In this document: positions 3,599-25,265 of the stretch, piece after piece
Layout: each line of letters begins with the position of its first letter
How positions within the stretch are numbered: the first letter of the stretch is position 1
Assembly (NCBI RefSeq): GCF_001748285.1
Contig: NZ_BDGT01000074.1
Span: 1-33,577, forward strand
Source: Thermogemmatispora onikobensis
GTDB lineage: Bacteria > Chloroflexota > Ktedonobacteria > Ktedonobacterales > Ktedonobacteraceae
Length of the DNA: 33,577 nucleotides
Direction of reading: 5' to 3'
Notes under the pieces: generated by a model
The model's input: only the letters and a program-made list of their open reading frames with translations
What the model was told of the DNA's origin: nothing
Database searches by the model: none
Translations under genes and position numbers: made by a program

Positions 3599-3643
3599 CT
3601 CAGGCTTGACGTCAGGGGCTTTTTGCGCTACCATTTTCCTTAC

Positions 3644-11295: not shown

Positions 11296-11361
11296 CGCGG
11301 GCTGGCCCGCCCGGGCCGGACTGGACCAGGCCGGTCGTCATCTCCTGCAGGAGTGCCCACG

Positions 11362-13140
11362 ATGAAACCGAATCTGCGTCTGAGACATGAGCGCGAGATG
11401 CGAGGCTGGTCGCAGGCCAGGGTCGCCGAGGCCATCGGCTCGTCTGAGAAGAATGTCAGTCGCTGGGAGCGGGGAGTCTCCTCGCCGCAGCCCTATTATC
11501 GCGAGAGGCTCTGTCAGCTCTTCGGCAAGAGCGCCCGCGAGCTGGGCTTTGTGGAGGAGGCCGGGGGTGGGCTGCAGGAGCGCGAGACCTCCCCAGGTCA
11601 GGGCCGTCAGGAGCGGGTGCTTGATCCGACGATGCCGCCGCTGCCAAACGAGGGGCGCGGCCTGGTCGGGCGCGAGACTCTGCTCGGGGAGCTGACGGCC
11701 CAGCTCTGTGCCGGGCGCTCGCTGGCGCTCTGTGGGTTGCCTGGGGTGGGGAAGACCGCTCTGGCCGTGACGTTGGCGCACGATCCGCGCGTGCTGGCGC
11801 GCTTTGAGGCGGGGGTGCTCTGGGCGGGCCTGGGGCCGCGCCCGAATGTGTTGGAGCATCTGCGCCGCTGGGAGCAGTTGCTGGGGGTGCCGCCGGCAAC
11901 GGGAGAGCTGTCGCTGGAGGCGCGGGCCCGTGCCTTGCGGACGGCCATCGGGCAGCGCGGCTTTGTGCTGGTCATCGATGATGTTTGGGAGCTGGAGGCG
12001 GCTCTGGCTTTCAAGATCGGGGGGCCGCGCTCGGTCTTGATCGCCACGACGCGCTTTCCGCGCCTGGCGCTGGCGATCGCCGGTGAGGGAGCGCGGACGA
12101 TTCATGAGCTGGAGAGCGCCGACGGGCTGGCTTTGCTGGCGCAGTGGGCGCCGGAGGTGGTGGCGCACGATCGGCGCGCGGCTTTGAGCCTGGTCGAGGA
12201 GGTTGGGGGGCTGCCGCTGGCTTTGACCCTGCTGGGGAAGTATTTACAGTCTCAGGCCCATAGCGGCCAGCCGCGTCGCCTGCAGGCGGCCCTGGCCCGC
12301 TTGCGCAGCTCGCATCAGCGCCTGCATGTCAGCGAGATGCGCGGTCCACTGGAGCAGCCGCCGCATCTGGCCTGGGGGACGCCGCTCTCGCTGCAGTCGG
12401 CCATTGCTGTCAGTGATCAGCAGCTCGATGAGCAGGCGCGTGAGGTGCTGCGCGCCTTGTCGGTCTTCCCGCCGAAGCCGAATAGCTTTAGCGAGGAGGC
12501 GGCCCTGGCGGTGGCCCAGGCTCCGCCGGAGGCGCTGGATGCTCTGGTCGATGCCGGCCTGTTGGAGAGCAGCGGCGCCGGACGCTATTTGTTGCATCAG
12601 ACGATTGCCGATTATGCCAGCGCTCATCTGCGCGATCCGCAGGCCGGCGAGCGCCTGGTGGCCTATGTGACGGGCCTGCTGGAGCGGCATGGGAACGACG
12701 ATGCCGCTCTGGAGCTGGAGAGCCGCAATATTGTGGCCGGCCTGCAGTATGCTTTTGAGAATGGACGCCATGCGCGCTTTATCCGCGGGGTGTTGGCCTT
12801 TGCGCCCTTTCTGCGCCGGCGTGGCTTTTATGATCTGGCCCGTCTCTATTTGCAGCGCGCCTATCAGATTGCTATCTGGTCGAGCGATGCGGCGACGCAG
12901 GGGCGTCTCTTGTTGGGTCTGGGCGAGGTGGCGCTGCGTCAGGGCGATCTGAAGGCGGCGGGCGGCTATCTGCGCGAGGCGCTGGTGCTGGTGCGTGAGG
13001 GCAGGCTGCGGCGCGAGTGGCGGCGCGTTCTGCGCCTGTTGCGCTATCTGGCCTGGCGCCAGGGCGAGGTTGAGCGGGCCGCCGATTATGGGCGCGAGCT
13101 GGCGGTGCTGGTGACGGAGGAGGGCGGCGGCGACGGCTGA
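11362..13140 (+). CDS. XRE-type HTH / NB-ARC STAND regulator
   Basis: A 592-residue signal-transduction ATPase. Residues 5-62 form a Cro/CI-type helix-turn-helix (GWSQARVAEAIGSSEKNVSR). An NB-ARC domain follows: P-loop GLPGVGKT at 125-132, Walker B FVLVIDDVW at 201-209, sensor-like IATTR at 227-231 and GLPLAL at 283-288. A winged-helix segment (VLRALSVFPPKPNSFSEEAA) and C-terminal TPR-like helices (ARLYLQRAYQIA; YLREALVLVREG) come next. Such proteins are thought to act as ligand- or partner-gated switches on transcription. ATG 11362 has AGGAG 8 nt upstream; GTG 11353 is the alternative start. It begins 66 nt after hyuB and could be co-transcribed, perhaps as its regulator. The 3' end overlaps the convergent MFS gene by 55 bp. 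Confidence 0.88.
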   Translation: MKPNLRLRHEREMRGWSQARVAEAIGSSEKNVSRWERGVSSPQPYYRERLCQLFGKSARELGFVEEAGGGLQERETSPGQGRQERVLDPTMPPLPNEGRGLVGRETLLGELTAQLCAGRSLALCGLPGVGKTALAVTLAHDPRVLARFEAGVLWAGLGPRPNVLEHLRRWEQLLGVPPATGELSLEARARALRTAIGQRGFVLVIDDVWELEAALAFKIGGPRSVLIATTRFPRLALAIAGEGARTIHELESADGLALLAQWAPEVVAHDRRAALSLVEEVGGLPLALTLLGKYLQSQAHSGQPRRLQAALARLRSSHQRLHVSEMRGPLEQPPHLAWGTPLSLQSAIAVSDQQLDEQAREVLRALSVFPPKPNSFSEEAALAVAQAPPEALDALVDAGLLESSGAGRYLLHQTIADYASAHLRDPQAGERLVAYVTGLLERHGNDDAALELESRNIVAGLQYAFENGRHARFIRGVLAFAPFLRRRGFYDLARLYLQRAYQIAIWSSDAATQGRLLLGLGEVALRQGDLKAAGGYLREALVLVREGRLRREWRRVLRLLRYLAWRQGEVERAADYGRELAVLVTEEGGGDG

Positions 13141-16761: not shown

Positions 16762-18066
16762 CTTTCAACCCCAGACGGGAGAAGCAAGCATTCTGACGCG
16801 ATCGGCTCTTCAGGGATGAGGACGAGATCGATTGGTTTCAACCCCAGAGCGGGCGAGACAGCCACCTGACACAACATCCCTCACAGCTGGTGTTGCTGGA
16901 CACAATCGGCAGCTTCGGTTTCAATCCCCGAACGGGCTAAATAAGCATTCTGACTACTCATGGTTGGCTTGCTGCAGTATGGCCAAGAGGTTTCAATCCC
17001 CGAACGGGCTAAATAAGCATTCTGACTACTCATGGTTGGCTTGCTGCAGTATGGCCAAGAGGTTTCAATCCCCGAACGGGCTAAATAAGCATTCTGACGT
17101 CCGGCAAGTTTCGCCGCGTCTTCTAATGCGGCTGTTTCAATCCCAGAGCGGGCTAAATAAGCATTCTGACCGTGCATAGGACTCCGATGGCGCGATGCTT
17201 GCGCCCCTGGTTTCAATCCCCGAGCGGGCTAAATAAGCATTCTGACCTTCTCGGGTCGATCCTATCTCCTCATCTTTAATGTGGTTTCAATCCCCGAGCG
17301 GGCTAAATAAGCATTCTGACTCGGATGACCGGCCTCATGGGAAGCGACATCACTTCGTTTCAATCCCCGAGCGGGCTAAATAAGCATTCTGACAAGAAGT
17401 AGGGTCAGATGCTGTATCGAGAGCAGTTGAAGTTTCAATCCCCGAGCGGGCTAAATAAGCATTCTGACTTTGTCGTTGATTTTGCGAATGACCGAGATGT
17501 CCCCTTTGACGGTTTCAATCCCCGAGCGGGCTAAATAAGCATTCTGACTCTCCTATCATCCGTATCTGGATACCTTACCTGGGTTTCAATCCCCGAGCGG
17601 GCTAAATAAGCATTCTGACTTTCCTGTCTGAGCACCAGGTCAAGCAACACGGTTGAATGTTTCAATCCCCGAGCGGGCTAAATAAGCATTCTGACGGAGA
17701 TTTCCAAGGAGCCATGTGGCGAGGTCCGCTTTGTTTCAATCCCCGAGCGGGCTAAATAAGCATTCTGACGGAGATTTCCAAGGAGCCATGTGGCGAGGTC
17801 CGCTTTGTTTCAATCCCCGAGCGGGCTAAATAAGCATTCTGACTCATGACAGCAACCGTGACCATCGACAAAGATACAAAGAGGTTTCAATCCCCGAGCG
17901 GGCTAAATAAGCATTCTGACCTCGTGGATCACGGCCTGGGCGGCCCTGCTGATTCGTTTCAATCCCCGAGCGGGCTAAATAAGCATTCTGACTCCAGTGA
18001 TGATCATCGATCTGGGTGAAGTAGGTTTTGTTTCAATCCCCGAGCGGGCTAAATAAGCATTCTGAC
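16762..18066 (-). CRISPR. CRISPR array: 16 well-conserved plus 2 degenerate 37-bp repeats
   Basis: On the plus strand each repeat begins GTTTCAATCCCC and ends GCATTCTGAC (37 bp), with a small CCCG-AG-CGGG stem inside. Good copies start at 16918, 16990, 17062, 17134, 17210, 17284, 17357, 17432, 17512, 17583, 17659, 17733, 17807, 17884, 17956 and 18030. Degenerate 36-bp copies lie at 16762-16797 and 16835-16870. Spacers are 34-43 bp, with a 47-bp one at the old end. Reverse-complemented, the repeat ends in ATTGAAAC, the usual 8-nt 5' tag of type I/III crRNAs. The decayed copies are at the left and a promoter abuts the right end, so transcription is on the minus strand with the newest spacers at the right. 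Two spacers are present twice: 16955-16989 = 17027-17061, and 17696-17732 = 17770-17806. No cas genes are in the window. Confidence 0.98.
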
Positions 18067-18892: not shown

Positions 18893-18921
18893 TTGTCAAG
18901 CTACAAACAAGCTGCTATCCT
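18893..18921 (+). promoter_or_regulatory. Promoter of the left duplicated unit
   Basis: TTGTCA (18893-18898), 17-bp spacer, TATCCT (18916-18921), with TGC before the -10. The same arrangement is kept at the matching place in the right copy although the spacer and flanks have diverged, which supports function. Confidence 0.6.
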
Positions 18922-19035
18922 CCATAGAGGAGCCAGAAGCCTCAGCTTCTCTTAGCCAGGAAGACAGACGGGCCTGGATCGCAAGCGGTTATCTGTGGAT
19001 AAACCTTTACAAGTGCAATGGATAGGAGCAAGAGC

Positions 19036-19186
19036 ATGCAAGACAGCTCGGCTCAACAAGGGCCAACCAGGAGCACCTACCCCATTGATCCCGAGCGCCT
19101 GTCAGCAGGCCATCGCTGAGATGCAGGCTGACGACTTCTGCGCCATCTGGACCTGGCTCACCGTCTGGGGTCGCCAGCCCACCTGA
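19036..19186 (+). pseudogene. Truncated SAM-dependent methyltransferase remnant
   Basis: Corresponds to the intact gene at 21940-22809 with the middle removed. The first about 20 codons (MQDSS...STYPIDPE) parallel the intact N-terminus (MQASS...STYPVDPE). From 19102 the sequence jumps to a stretch matching 22725 onward, which encodes the C-terminus QQAIAEMQADDFCAIWTWLT. The net deletion is about 719 bp, not a multiple of three, so the N-terminal frame runs into a TGA after 27 codons and the C-terminal part is out of frame. All SAM-binding motifs are gone. The ribosome site AGGAG is kept, so a short leader peptide could still be made ahead of the kinase gene. Confidence 0.88.
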
Positions 19187-19337
19187 AGCGGGCAAACAGC
19201 AAGCGCCATGCCAGCCTCGACCGACCAACCGACCATCGTAACCAGCGCATCACCAGCAGGCCAAAGGGACCGAGCGGCCCGGCTGCGCTGGTGATAGCAA
19301 CCAGCGATCATATTCTGTTGAAGATCGCCATAGCCAT

Positions 19338-21584
19338 ATGAGTACATCCTTTGCACAAGAACGCTTCTGCGACCATTGTGGAGCCGCCAACCCGGCAGAT
19401 GCCGCCCGCTGCTGGCATTGTCAGGGGGCGCTGCCGGCCCCCCTGGCCACAGTGGGCGCCCTGCTCCTGGGGCGCTACCATCTGATCCGCGAGCTGGGCC
19501 AGGGGGGCATGGGCACCGTCTTTCTGGCCGAAGACCGGCGCCTTGGTGCCCGTGCCGTCGCCGTCAAATGCCTCTACAAACATCGCCTCAACACACAAGA
19601 GCGAGCCGAAGCCGAGCGCGCCTTTCAACAGGAGGCTGAACTACTGGCGCGCCTGCACCATCCGAGCCTGCCGGCCATCCACGACTACTGGAGCGAGCCA
19701 GAGGCCAGCTATCTGGTGATGGACTATATCGAGGGCGAGACCCTGGAAGTCATCCAACAGAGAGCCGGTCAGAGGCCCCTGCCCCTGGTACAAGTCTTAG
19801 GCTGGGGGCAGCAGCTCTGCGAGGTGCTGGCCTATCTGCACGAGCAGCAGCCGCCGATTATTTTCCGCGACCTCAAGCCGGCCAATGTCATGCTGCGCCG
19901 TAGCGACGGGCGGCTCCTGCTGATTGACTTTGGGATTGCGCGGCACTTCAAACCAGGCCAGGCCCACGACACCGTTGCCTTTGGCTCTCCTGGCTTTGCG
20001 GCGCCGGAGCAGTATGGCAAAGAGCAGACCACGCCGCGCAGCGACCTCTACAGTCTTGGGGCGGTGCTGCACTACCTGCTGAGCGGGCGTGATCCGAGCG
20101 AGCAGCCGTTTCGCTTTGCCTCCTTGCGGCAGCTCAATCCAGAAGTGCCCGAGGGGCTGGCCCGGCTCATTGCCGAGCTGGTGGCCCTGGAACCGAAACA
20201 CCGCCCATCCTCGGCGCGTGAGGTGCTGGAGCAGCTGAAGCAGCAGGCTGGGATTGGCAAAGGGAGCGGCAGGAGCACGCGAGTGGGGGGCTGGCCAGCA
20301 CAGGGGCAAGGTGCAGCAGCAGCAGTGCAGCCGAAGCAGGGACTGGCGCCGACGGTGCCGGCGGGGCCCTTGGTCTCAGCAGCCGGCCAGGCTCAGGCTG
20401 GGGGGCAAGGTGCAGCAGCAGCAGTGCAGCTGAAGCAGGGACTGGCGCCGACGGTGCCGGCGGGACCCTTGGTCTCAGCAGCCGGCCAGGCTCAAGCGGG
20501 AAGGCAGCGCCAGTTGCAGCAGCCTGCGCTGATCTCCCCGCCGGCGGTGCCAGTTCAAAAACCACGGCTATCTCGGCGCTCCTTGCTCGCACTGGGCCTC
20601 GGGGGAGGAATGTTGGCCCTGGTCTCTGGCGGTGTCTTTTTCCTCTTAGCGCAATCGCGCATTCCCAGGCTGGCCCTCCAGGAAGGGCAGGGAACAGGGC
20701 AAGTGAGCCTCCTGCTAACCTGCCGGGGACATCGCGGCCCGGTGACTGCGCTCGCCTGCTCGCCGGATCACATCGTGCTCGCCTCCGCTTCGAGCGATCA
20801 GACGGTCCGCCTCTGGGATGCCAACACTGGGGCAAGCCTGCGGGTCTACACTGGCCATCAGAGCGAAGTTCGGGCGCTCTCCTGGTCGCCCGGAGGCGTC
20901 TACATTGCCTCTGGTTCCGCTGATGGAATGATCCACATCTGGGATGCTGACGCAGGGCAGCTCCGGCGAAGCTACCAGGGGCACAACGCTGCCGTCAATG
21001 CCCTGGCCTGGTCTCCACAGCCGGATGATACACCGTTGGCCTCAGCGGGCGACGATGGCAGCGTCTCCATCTGGGATGGCTCCAGCGGGCAGCTTCTCAC
21101 GAAGCTGCCCGGCAGCGGCGGGAGCATTCGCGCCCTGGCCTGGTCGCCTGATGGCGAGCTGTTTGCCTCAGCCGGCGACGCTGGCCTGGTCGAGATCCGA
21201 GAAACGGGCGCGTGGTCTGCCCTAAGTTCCTACCAGGGCCATAGCGGCCCGGTCTGGAGTCTGGCCTGGTCGCCTGACAGCAGCCTGCTCGCCTCCGGCT
21301 CGGCTGATACCACCGTCCAGATCTGGAACCCCAGCACCGGCGAACGGCTGCTGACCTACAGGGGCCACTGGGATACCGTCACCGGCCTGGCCTGGTCGCC
21401 CTTTCAGCGCGAGATCGCCTCGTGCTCCTATGACGGCACCGTCCAGGTCTGGGAGAGCAAAAACGGGCAGCTTTTGGGAGCTGGCAAAAGCGCAGCCTTC
21501 CAGGCGCTCATCTGGTGGCCGTCCTATACCCTGCTCGCCACCGGAGACAAGGACGCCAACGTACGCATCTGGCAAGTTTCCTGA
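19338..21584 (+). CDS. Membrane Ser/Thr protein kinase with zinc ribbon and WD40 sensor (copy 1)
   Basis: A 748-residue Hanks-type receptor kinase. Order: zinc ribbon with Cys11, 14, 25, 28; kinase domain about 46-300; a linker with two 33-residue repeats (323-388); one TM segment (about 413-438); and seven WD40 blades (about 460-748), predicted outside the membrane. Kinase motifs: GQGGMG (54-59), Lys77, FRDLKPAN (176-183; the usual His of HRD is Phe), DFG (197-199), APE (222-224). Blades end in LWD, IWD, IWD, IRE, IWN, VWE and IWQ, so a complete propeller is likely. It probably senses an external ligand or wall component and phosphorylates cytosolic targets. No strong Shine-Dalgarno is seen before ATG 19338. 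Compared with copy 2 the first about 455 residues differ by two substitutions and one Ala, whereas the propeller differs at about 25 positions. Confidence 0.93.
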   Translation: MSTSFAQERFCDHCGAANPADAARCWHCQGALPAPLATVGALLLGRYHLIRELGQGGMGTVFLAEDRRLGARAVAVKCLYKHRLNTQERAEAERAFQQEAELLARLHHPSLPAIHDYWSEPEASYLVMDYIEGETLEVIQQRAGQRPLPLVQVLGWGQQLCEVLAYLHEQQPPIIFRDLKPANVMLRRSDGRLLLIDFGIARHFKPGQAHDTVAFGSPGFAAPEQYGKEQTTPRSDLYSLGAVLHYLLSGRDPSEQPFRFASLRQLNPEVPEGLARLIAELVALEPKHRPSSAREVLEQLKQQAGIGKGSGRSTRVGGWPAQGQGAAAAVQPKQGLAPTVPAGPLVSAAGQAQAGGQGAAAAVQLKQGLAPTVPAGPLVSAAGQAQAGRQRQLQQPALISPPAVPVQKPRLSRRSLLALGLGGGMLALVSGGVFFLLAQSRIPRLALQEGQGTGQVSLLLTCRGHRGPVTALACSPDHIVLASASSDQTVRLWDANTGASLRVYTGHQSEVRALSWSPGGVYIASGSADGMIHIWDADAGQLRRSYQGHNAAVNALAWSPQPDDTPLASAGDDGSVSIWDGSSGQLLTKLPGSGGSIRALAWSPDGELFASAGDAGLVEIRETGAWSALSSYQGHSGPVWSLAWSPDSSLLASGSADTTVQIWNPSTGERLLTYRGHWDTVTGLAWSPFQREIASCSYDGTVQVWESKNGQLLGAGKSAAFQALIWWPSYTLLATGDKDANVRIWQVS
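20304..20501 (+). repeat. Two 99-bp in-gene tandem repeats (linker of kinase copy 1)
   Basis: Units 20304-20402 and 20403-20501 are nearly identical and encode 33-residue Ala/Gln/Pro-rich segments starting GQGAAAAVQ and ending GQAQAG. They lie between kinase and TM segment. Each starts with a CAG-rich run prone to slippage. Confidence 0.9.
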
Positions 21585-21612
21585 TGAGAAAGCTTCTCAC
21601 CAATGCACAAGC

Positions 21613-21646
21613 GGACTGCTGTCACTAGCTCCGGCCACGGCAGTCC
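21613..21646 (+). terminator. Stem-loop after kinase copy 1
   Basis: GGACTGCTGT (21613-21622) pairs with ACGGCAGTCC (21637-21646), nine Watson-Crick pairs plus one G-U. The matching right copy has a perfect 10-bp stem with a different loop, so pairing is maintained. There is no T-run, so it may be a terminator or an mRNA-stabilising structure. Confidence 0.45.
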
Positions 21647-21790
21647 CTCGTGGCCATCAACCATGACGAAGGAGGCGGCAGCGGCATATGTTTCCTTCCT
21701 GGCTGGGGGGCCAGTAAGGTACTATTGAGGGGCCATACGAGAGCGAGTGAACAGCCCATAGCGAGACGACTGTCAAGGATGCATGAGCGC

Positions 21791-21819
21791 TTGTCAAGCG
21801 ACGGACAAGCTGCTATGCT
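21791..21819 (+). promoter_or_regulatory. Promoter of the methyltransferase-kinase unit (right copy)
   Basis: TTGTCA (21791-21796), 17-bp spacer, TATGCT (21814-21819) with TGC just before the -10. Transcription would begin near 21826, about 115 nt before the methyltransferase start. Conserved in the left copy. Confidence 0.65.
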
Positions 21820-21939
21820 CCATAGGGGGAGCCAGAAGCCGTAGCATCTCCTCTCTCAGCCGGGAGGACAGACGGGTCTGGATCGCCAACAGCACTCTGA
21901 GGATGAATATCTGAGCTTGAAATGGAGAGGAGCAAGAGC

Positions 21940-22809
21940 ATGCAGGCCAGCTCGTCTCTTCCAGAGCCAACGCAGAGTACCTACCCTGTTGATCCAGAAC
22001 AGGCGGCTGAACTCGCCCGCCTGATACAACAGGATCGCCTGGTGACTGAGGCAATGGGCGGCCTCTTTCCCGAAGGGCAGCCGCTCCCGCCCGATGGGCA
22101 GGTTCTCGATCTGGCCTGTGGCCCTGGCGGCTGGGCTATGCAGGTCGCTTTTGCACATCCTTCTGTCGAGGTGATCGGCGTCGATCTCAACGCTGGCGTC
22201 ATCGACTATGCCCATGTCCAGGCTCGCAGCCGCGGCCTGACGAATGTCGCCTTCTCCGTCATGGACATCAGGCAGCCCCTGGCCTTCGCTGATGCCTCCT
22301 TTGATCTCATCAACGGGCGCTTCCTCTTCAGCTTCATGGGTCCCGCAGACTGGGCGGCTCTTCTGAGCGAGTGCCGCCGCCTGCTCAAGCCCGGTGGCAT
22401 AATCCGCCTGACAGAGACCGAGGGCCCGCTGACGACCAGCCCCGCCACGGAGCGTCTTTTCGCTTTGGGCTATGCCGCCCTCAAGCGCGCCGGTCAGAGC
22501 TTCTCGCCCGACGGCAACCACATCGGCATTACTCCCGTGCTGCCGCGGCTACTGCGCCGCGCCGGCTTCACTGAGGTGCACCTGTATGCCAGCGCCGCCG
22601 AATGGTCGAGTGAGACGCCGCTGCATTATGCCTTCTTCAAAGATGAGATGGTCGCCCTGGACCTCTCACTTCCCTTTCTGGTCAGGATAGGCATGGGAAG
22701 CGAGGAAGGACTACGCCAGCTTTATCAGCAGGCCATCGCTGAGATGCAGGCTGACGACTTCTGCGCCATCTGGACCTGGCTCACCGTCTGGGGTCGCCAG
22801 CCCACCTGA
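21940..22809 (+). CDS. Class I SAM-dependent methyltransferase
   Basis: A 289-residue cytosolic methyltransferase of unknown substrate. Motif I is VLDLACGPGGWAMQVA with GPGG at residues 61-64; the acidic loop binding the SAM ribose is VIGVDLN (79-84). Motif II/III-like segments FSVMDIRQPLAFADASFDLI and LLKPGGIIRLTE follow, as in ubiquinone/menaquinone-type and other small-molecule methyltransferases. The C-terminal half (PRLLRRAGFTEVHLYASA) is normal for the family. ATG 21940 was preferred over 21922 because GAGAGGAG lies 7 nt before it. The kinase gene starts 150 nt later on the same strand behind the same promoter, and the pair was duplicated together, which suggests a functional link. A deleted copy is at 19036-19186. 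Confidence 0.9.
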   Translation: MQASSSLPEPTQSTYPVDPEQAAELARLIQQDRLVTEAMGGLFPEGQPLPPDGQVLDLACGPGGWAMQVAFAHPSVEVIGVDLNAGVIDYAHVQARSRGLTNVAFSVMDIRQPLAFADASFDLINGRFLFSFMGPADWAALLSECRRLLKPGGIIRLTETEGPLTTSPATERLFALGYAALKRAGQSFSPDGNHIGITPVLPRLLRRAGFTEVHLYASAAEWSSETPLHYAFFKDEMVALDLSLPFLVRIGMGSEEGLRQLYQQAIAEMQADDFCAIWTWLTVWGRQPT

Positions 22810-22959
22810 AGCGGGCAAACAGCAAGCGCCATGCCAGCCTCGACCGACCAACCGACCATCGTAACCAGCGCATCATCAGCAGGCCAAAAGGACCGAGCGG
22901 CCCGCTTGCGCCAGTAATAGCAACCAGCGATCATCTCTGTTGAAAATCGCCATAGCCAT

Positions 22960-25203
22960 ATGAGTACATCCTTTGCACAAGAACGCTTCTGCGACCACTG
23001 TGGGGCCGCCAACCCGGCAGATGCCGCCCGCTGCTGGCATTGTCAGGGGGCGCTGCCGGCCCCCCTGGCCACAGTGGGCGCCCTGCTCCTGGGGCGCTAC
23101 CATCTGATCCGCGAGCTGGGCCAGGGGGGCATGGGCACCGTCTTTCTGGCCGAAGACCGGCGCCTTGGTGCCCGTGCCGTCGCCGTCAAATGCCTCTACA
23201 AACATCGCCTCAACACACAAGAGCGAGCCGAAGCCGAGCGCGCCTTTCAACAGGAGGCTGAACTACTGGCGCGCCTGCACCATCCGAGCCTGCCGGCCAT
23301 CCACGACTACTGGAGCGAGCCAGAGGCCAGCTATCTGGTGATGGACTATATCGAGGGCGAGACCCTGGAAGTCATCCAACAGAGAGCCGGTCAGAGGCCC
23401 CTGCCCCTGGTACAAGTCTTAGGCTGGGGGCAGCAGCTCTGCGAGGTGCTGGCCTATCTGCACGAGCAGCAGCCGCCGATTATTTTCCGCGACCTCAAGC
23501 CGGCCAATGTCATGCTGCGCCGTAGCGACGGGCGGCTCCTGCTGATTGACTTTGGGATTGCGCGGCACTTCAAACCAGGCCAGGCCCACGACACCGTTGC
23601 CTTTGGCTCTCCTGGCTTTGCGGCGCCGGAGCAGTATGGCAAAGAGCAGACCACGCCGCGCAGCGACCTCTACAGTCTTGGGGCGGTGCTGCACTACCTG
23701 CTGAGCGGGCGTGATCCGAGCGAGCAGCCGTTTCGCTTTGCCCCCTTGCGGCAGCTCAATCCAGAAGTGCCCGAGGGGCTGGCCCGGCTCATTGCCGAGC
23801 TGGTGGCCCTGGAACCGAAACACCGCCCATCCTCGGCGCGTGAGGTGCTGGAGCAGCTGAAGCAGCAGGCTGGGATTGGCAAAGGGAGCGGCAGGAGCAC
23901 GCGAGTGGGGGGCTGGCCAGCACAGGGGCAAGGTGCAGCAGCAGCAGTGCAGCCGAAGCAGGGACTGGCGCCGACGGTGCCGGCGGGGCCCTTGGTCTCA
24001 GCAGCCGGCCAGGCTCAGGCTGGGGGGCAAGGTGCAGCAGCAGTGCAGCTGAAGCAGGGACTGGCGCCGACGGTGCCGGCGGGACCCTTGGTCTCAGCAG
24101 CCGGCCAGGCTCAAGCGGGAAGGCAGCGCCAGTTGCAGCAGCCTGCGCTGATCTCCCCGCCGGCGGTGCCAGTTCAAAAACCGCAGCTATCTCGGCGCTC
24201 CTTGCTCGCACTGGGCCTCGGGGGAGGAATGTTGGCCCTGGTCTCTGGCGGTGTCTTTTTCCTCTTAGCGCAATCGCGCATTCCCAGGCTGGCCCTCCAG
24301 GAAGGGCAGGGAACAGGGCAAGTGAGCCTCCTGCTAACCTGCCGGGGACATCGCGGCCCGGTGACTGCGCTCGCCTGGTCGCCGGATCACACTGTGCTCG
24401 CCTCCGCTTCGAGCGATCAGACGGTCCGCCTCTGGGATGCCAACACTGGGGCAAGCCTGCGGGTCTACACTGGCCATCAGAGCGAAGTTCGGGCGCTCTC
24501 CTGGTCGCCCGGAGGCGTCTACATTGCCTCTGGTTCCGCTGATGGAATGATCCACATCTGGGATGCTGACACAGGGCAGCTCCGGCGAAGCTACCAGGGG
24601 CACAACGCTGCCGTCAATGCCCTGGCCTGGTCTCCACAGCCGGATGATACACGGCTGGCCTCAGCGGGCGACGATGGCAGCGTCTCCATCTGGGATGGCT
24701 CCAGCGGGCAGCTTCGTGAGAAGCTGCCCGGCAGCGGCGGGAGCATCCGCGCCCTGGCCTGGTCGCCTGATGGCGAGCGGCTTGCCTCAGCCGGAGACGC
24801 TGGCCTGGTCGAGATCCGAGAAACGGTCGGCTGGTCTGCCCTAAGCTCCTACCAGGGCCATAGCGGCCCGGTCTGGAGTCTGGCCTGGTCGCCTGATGGC
24901 AACCTGGTCGCCTCCGGCTCGGCTGATACCACCGTCCAGATCTGGAACCTCAGCACCGGCGAACGGCTGCTGACCTACAGGGGCCACAGCGATACCGTCA
25001 CCGGCCTGGCCTGGTCGCCCTTTCAGCGCGAGATCGCCTCGTGCTCCTATGACGGCACTGTCCAGGTCTGGGACAGCACGAGCGGGCGGCTCTGGGGAAC
25101 TGGCAAAAGTGCTGCTTTCCAGGTGCTCGTCTGGTGGCCATCCTATACCCTGCTCGCCACCGGAGACAAGGACGCCAACGTACGGATCTGGCAAACTGCC
25201 TGA
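22960..25203 (+). CDS. Membrane Ser/Thr protein kinase with zinc ribbon and WD40 sensor (copy 2)
   Basis: A 747-residue paralogue of the gene at 19338 with the same layout: zinc ribbon (Cys11, 14, 25, 28), kinase domain with GQGGMG, Lys77, FRDLKPAN, DFG and APE, repeat linker, one TM segment, and a seven-bladed WD40 domain. The one-residue difference in length comes from loss of one CAG in the second linker repeat. The cytoplasmic half is almost unchanged from copy 1. Substitutions gather in the propeller, mostly blades 4-7: for example SKNGQLLGAG becomes STSGRLWGTG, and GHWDTV becomes GHSDTV. Some changes restore propeller consensus (ALAWSPD here, ALACSPD in copy 1). It is 150 nt downstream of an intact methyltransferase. 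Ligand and phosphorylation targets are unknown. Confidence 0.93.
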   Translation: MSTSFAQERFCDHCGAANPADAARCWHCQGALPAPLATVGALLLGRYHLIRELGQGGMGTVFLAEDRRLGARAVAVKCLYKHRLNTQERAEAERAFQQEAELLARLHHPSLPAIHDYWSEPEASYLVMDYIEGETLEVIQQRAGQRPLPLVQVLGWGQQLCEVLAYLHEQQPPIIFRDLKPANVMLRRSDGRLLLIDFGIARHFKPGQAHDTVAFGSPGFAAPEQYGKEQTTPRSDLYSLGAVLHYLLSGRDPSEQPFRFAPLRQLNPEVPEGLARLIAELVALEPKHRPSSAREVLEQLKQQAGIGKGSGRSTRVGGWPAQGQGAAAAVQPKQGLAPTVPAGPLVSAAGQAQAGGQGAAAVQLKQGLAPTVPAGPLVSAAGQAQAGRQRQLQQPALISPPAVPVQKPQLSRRSLLALGLGGGMLALVSGGVFFLLAQSRIPRLALQEGQGTGQVSLLLTCRGHRGPVTALAWSPDHTVLASASSDQTVRLWDANTGASLRVYTGHQSEVRALSWSPGGVYIASGSADGMIHIWDADTGQLRRSYQGHNAAVNALAWSPQPDDTRLASAGDDGSVSIWDGSSGQLREKLPGSGGSIRALAWSPDGERLASAGDAGLVEIRETVGWSALSSYQGHSGPVWSLAWSPDGNLVASGSADTTVQIWNLSTGERLLTYRGHSDTVTGLAWSPFQREIASCSYDGTVQVWDSTSGRLWGTGKSAAFQVLVWWPSYTLLATGDKDANVRIWQTA
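23926..24120 (+). repeat. Tandem repeats in the linker of kinase copy 2 (99 + 96 bp)
   Basis: Same two-unit repeat as in copy 1, but the second unit (24025-24120) lacks one CAG triplet, an in-frame contraction that leaves GQGAAAVQ instead of GQGAAAAVQ. Confidence 0.9.
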
Positions 25204-25231
25204 TGAGAAAGCTTCTCACCAATGCACAAGC

Positions 25232-25265
25232 GGACTGCTGTCACTGGCTCCTGCTACAGCAGTCC
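25232..25265 (+). terminator. Stem-loop after kinase copy 2
   Basis: GGACTGCTGT (25232-25241) and ACAGCAGTCC (25256-25265) form a perfect 10-bp stem with a 14-nt loop. No T-run follows. Conserved pairing with the left copy supports a role at the 3' end of the kinase mRNA. Confidence 0.5.

Follow-up and report, generated by a model that had tools for sequence, protein, structure and literature searches.

PkwA of Thermomonospora curvata carries an N-terminal protein kinase domain (Pkinase) and a C-terminal seven-bladed WD40 domain (WD40 structure, 5yzv), an arrangement shared by the two kinases analyzed here. For receptor layout, PkwA-type proteins serve as the comparison, as treated in PMC6113231 and in Janda et al. 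1996 cited there. The methyltransferase (MTase) encoded beside the kinases resembles the class I SAM methyltransferases (Pfam Methyltransf_25/11/31), which have a Rossmann domain with motif I. No literature on the locus itself was found.

Layout of the two direct copies

Thermogemmatispora onikobensis is a heat-loving soil bacterium. The window, namely the whole stretch of DNA analyzed, comprises bases 1–33577 (33,577 nucleotides) of contig C74 of its draft genome (5.56 Mb, 112 contigs), whose closest relatives are Thermogemmatispora species. Self-comparison of the window revealed two direct copies at 18893–21646 (left) and 21791–25265 (right). An earlier sequence-only reading had described both copies; each consists of a sigma-70-like promoter, MTase sequence, a gene encoding a zinc ribbon, Ser/Thr kinase, linker, and WD40 domain, and a stem-loop. 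Their features are as follows.

18893–18921, forward strand: left sigma-70-like promoter, TTGTCA-17-TATCCT, kept in the left and right copies of T. carboxidivorans PM5
19018–19101, forward strand: 5′ remnant of the left MTase, approximately 24 codons, in a frame from ATG at 19037 to TGA at 19118–19120
19102–19186, forward strand: 3′ remnant of the left MTase, its last codons, identical to 22725–22809 of the right copy
19338–21584, forward strand: kinase K1, 748 aa, with zinc ribbon, Ser/Thr kinase, linker, putative transmembrane (TM) segment, and seven-bladed WD40 domain
21612–21646, forward strand: closing stem-loop of the left copy (z = −2.8)
21791–21819, forward strand: right sigma-70-like promoter, TTGTCA-17-TATGCT, kept in PM5
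21922–22809, forward strand: intact right class I SAM MTase, 295 aa, dN/dS 0.11–0.16
22960–25203, forward strand: kinase K2, 747 aa, with the architecture of K1 and a near-identical kinase half
25229–25265, forward strand: closing stem-loop of the right copy, where the shared sequence ends (z = −4.8)

The offset between the copies is 2898–2904 at the promoter but 3622–3623 downstream, so the left copy has a net loss of 719 bp, the size previously estimated for the left MTase. The right copy is complete, as had been claimed, with an intact MTase and an open kinase-WD40 frame. The left copy likewise retains its promoter, an open 748-aa frame, and its stem-loop. The left MTase remnant is composite: its 5′ piece, together with the promoter and leader, is approximately 76% identical to the right copy, while 19102–19252, which takes in the final 28 codons of the MTase plus 66 bases of the spacer, is 100% identical. 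The 3′ remnant is probably a conversion tract from the right copy.

Both kinases match Pkinase PF00069 well above threshold (142 bits; cut-off, 31.7), and the motifs GQGGMG, AVK, FRDLKPAN, DFG, and APEQY are invariant among six orthologues. The C-terminal region matches PF00400, and a propeller of seven four-stranded blades is predicted there with high confidence. The AlphaFold model, which is reliable for the propeller only and of low confidence in the kinase half, places 28 WD40 strands at residues 456–745 with pLDDT mostly >85. The putative TM segment was called by eye.

Elsewhere in the window, a CRISPR array of approximately 14 repeats (GTTTCAATCCCCGAGCGGGCTAAATAAGCATTCTGAC) lies at 17061–18066 and contains one tandemly duplicated repeat-spacer unit (17658–17731 = 17732–17805). 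In the window ORFs covered by the Pfam scan, no cas genes were detected. A STAND-type HTH-NB-ARC-TPR protein is encoded at 11353–13140.

Orthologous loci and gene conversion between the kinase genes

The single-contig genome of T. carboxidivorans PM5 contains two units at the equivalent place (L037), flanked by a CRISPR array on one side and a PHB-depolymerase-type esterase on the other. The order there is a left MTase cut after approximately 33 codons, a kinase, an intact MTase whose protein is 86% identical to the window right MTase, and a second kinase. Since PM5 shows this tandem layout with the left MTase truncated, the two-unit layout is old and an assembly artefact, in which one true unit is displayed twice, is highly improbable. 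The draft status of the window genome and its near-identical tracts of 0.7–1.2 kb would accommodate such an error, but the copies are distinct by approximately 20% or more in their promoter regions and also in the WD40 halves toward the 3′ end, and PM5 carries two units on one contig. Near-identical halves may be collapsed or chimeric in a 112-contig draft.

The PM5 left remnant stops at the position equivalent to window 22023, and the window remnant is compatible with this end point after an 18-nt internal loss. Because the left MTases of both genomes are cut near the start, the truncation would either predate the split of the two species or have occurred twice. T. tikiterensis has a single MTase and a single kinase (L038). 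T. aurantia has a lone kinase (L045) that has lost its zinc ribbon; its N-terminal end is joined in frame with the tail of the MTase (L045:6015–6130). The left junction of this fusion lies at a short direct repeat, within the near-repeat ATCAGCAG(A/G)CCAT, which occurs in the window at approximately 18653 and 22724; this position makes a deletion between near-repeats a plausible route to the fusion. In a fifth genome (G004), a short contig carries a WD40 half of the T. aurantia type adjoining the esterase, and no counterpart of this kinase and no orthologous esterase were detected in a sixth (G002).

The identity of K1 and K2 is 99.7% for the kinase half, 100% for the linker, and 95% for the WD40 half. 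These values might suggest a recent simple tandem duplication in the window strain followed by deletion of the left MTase, as the sequence-only reading implied. Although the near-identical kinase halves agree with it, this history is improbable, since the PM5 layout matches and the left MTase is truncated there too. Furthermore, the promoter and MTase 5′ regions of the two window copies are only about 76–80% identical, and their coexistence with 99.7% identical kinase halves rules out a single duplication age. The copies are old and homogenized.

The kinase halves show a dS of 0.000 within the window genome (no synonymous differences) and 0.022 within PM5, against 0.55 between the window species and PM5. 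Protein constraint was ruled out as the cause of the identical kinase halves, as synonymous sites are identical too. In PM5, the identity of K1 and K2 switches from 99% to approximately 60% at codon 272, with 5 differences in 818 sites before nt 818 and 532 in 1339 after it. Between the window genes, 11 of the 1756 sites preceding nt 1756 and 38 of the 485 following it are different. These positions are the best breakpoints in the respective genomes, and in both, site-order shuffles gave p < 0.001 for the longest identical run. The kinase-half tree groups sequences by genome (support of 100 for the PM5 pair), whereas the WD40-half tree groups them by type: PM5_K2 pairs with T. tikiterensis (support of 100), and the two window copies cluster with PM5_K1, T. 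aurantia, and G004. Low dS within genomes, the value of 0.55 between species, and the conflicting trees indicate that the near-identity of K1 and K2 stems from gene conversion.

The direction of conversion is read from few genomes. Since the other WD40 type is found in the right copy of PM5 and of T. tikiterensis, the WD40 half of window K2 was apparently replaced by the left type, after which drift lowered the identity to 95%. The kinase half of the window pair was apparently renewed by conversion after this replacement. The dN/dS is approximately 0.15 for the kinase half versus 0.4–0.7 for the WD40 half; therefore, either evolution is faster or constraint is weaker in the WD40 sensors, although such values are no proof of positive selection. 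From a reading of the repeats, the replacements between K1 and K2 in the WD40 half appear to map mostly to the SPDG loops, the WD-TG loops, and the outer strand rather than to the GH-loop face.

The methyltransferase, its family, and the kinases

The right MTase contains motif I (LDLACGPGG) and matches PF13649 with 78 bits (cut-off, 27). Its dN/dS values of 0.16 and 0.11 demonstrate purifying selection. As for its substrate, all NCBIfam matches were far below cut-off, none at equivalog level, and the solved relatives in the PDB are diverse small-molecule and other MTases with generic class I matches only. The family has 24 members in the window genome, 25 in PM5, and 29 in G001, the better-assembled Thermogemmatispora genomes, and 47 in the relative G009. 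In these four genomes (window genome, G000; PM5, G003), the members are full-length and often form tandem arrays (e.g., L017, L025, and L039). A promoter or leader common to the family was considered and rejected: when 22 other MTase genes were compared, their upstream sequences showed no homology to the window leader beyond a single 13-nt match of chance size.

The sequence-only reading had proposed that the MTase and kinase form a general signaling pair or that one MTase serves both kinases. In such a pair, the MTase could, for example, modify the kinase itself, the kinase target, or the kinase ligand. In three species, the orthologous locus indeed has the MTase next to the kinase on the same strand, and the MTase evolves under purifying selection. 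In addition, the window genome has a second neighbor pair on contig C54 (L080, G000:C54:9417–12968), with the kinase first and the MTase 261 bp downstream on the same strand, and this pair is conserved in PM5 near G003:C1:4232742. The C54 gene is, however, the sole other family member in the window genome with a related kinase within approximately 2 kb; only 2 of 24 members adjoin a kinase, leaving about 22 without such a neighbor. When the MTase set was rotated around the genome and kinase neighbors were counted, no enrichment was observed in PM5 (2/25 versus 1.68 expected, P = 0.45) or G009 (0/47 versus 2.62 expected). Because these counts do not exceed chance, a dedicated pair is not supported, and the pairing as a general module was rejected in both genomes; the sequence-only reading had itself named such an outcome as refuting the pair. 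The lone T. aurantia kinase without a local MTase and the loss of the MTase from the left copies of the window and PM5 also argue against a dedicated pair, which we regard as unlikely. A single MTase may nevertheless act for both receptors. The best reading is that the MTase is constrained but incidental to the kinases, and the pairing appears to reflect local context. The related suggestion that the MTase became dispensable in one copy fits the PM5 and T. aurantia kinases that have no MTase directly in front. Thus, the duplication and the MTase loss of the sequence-only reading are real, but its general signaling pair lacks support, and the simple recent duplication that it implied is wrong.

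Proposed history and comparison with PkwA

Considering these results, the best explanation, to which we assign a probability of roughly 75%, combines an old tandem duplication, an ancient truncation of the left MTase, and repeated conversion, yielding kinases that share an output and differ in their sensors. Long ago, a single Thermogemmatispora locus would have undergone tandem duplication of an MTase-kinase unit. Its left MTase would then have been reduced to the first 24–34 codons, so that only the left kinase would be driven by the remaining promoter and leader. Gene conversion between K1 and K2 has since carried over the kinase half repeatedly and, in the window, would also have taken in the tail of the MTase, the spacer, the linker, and, at an earlier stage, the WD40 half. 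The outcome would be two PkwA-like membrane receptor kinases that have one output domain in common but sensors diverging strongly in PM5 and slightly in the window.

K1 may use the former MTase promoter, which would give its transcript a leader of approximately 400 nt, and K2 follows the MTase, with which it probably forms a two-gene operon. The layout and the PkwA-type proteins suggest a likely topology with the kinase inside and the WD40 propeller outside the membrane. The identical kinase halves suggest one target set, and the divergence of the WD40 halves, large in PM5 and small in the window, suggests separate inputs. More tentatively, conversion might be favored because it holds two receptors on one output while the WD40 sensors diverge or swap, a modular arrangement of one output and several inputs that we consider possible but doubtful. 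The locus provides a clean example of how bacterial receptor kinases can undergo domain-wise concerted evolution, and the breakpoints can be read in both PM5 and the window species. As the window kinases show, paralogue identity can mislead the dating of duplications.

K1 and K2 are best read as PkwA-like WD40 receptor kinases with a putative membrane location and predicted kinase activity. While generic class I enzymes provide the match for the neighboring MTase, it belongs to a Ktedonobacterial family with 24–47 copies per genome in several genomes. The window WD40 half matches that of PkwA with an E value of 1.5e-51. Unlike PkwA, the window kinases have an N-terminal zinc ribbon and a Pro/Gln-rich linker containing an internal repeat, carry Phe in place of His in the HRD motif (FRDLKPAN), possess a putative TM segment, and occur as two tandem copies.
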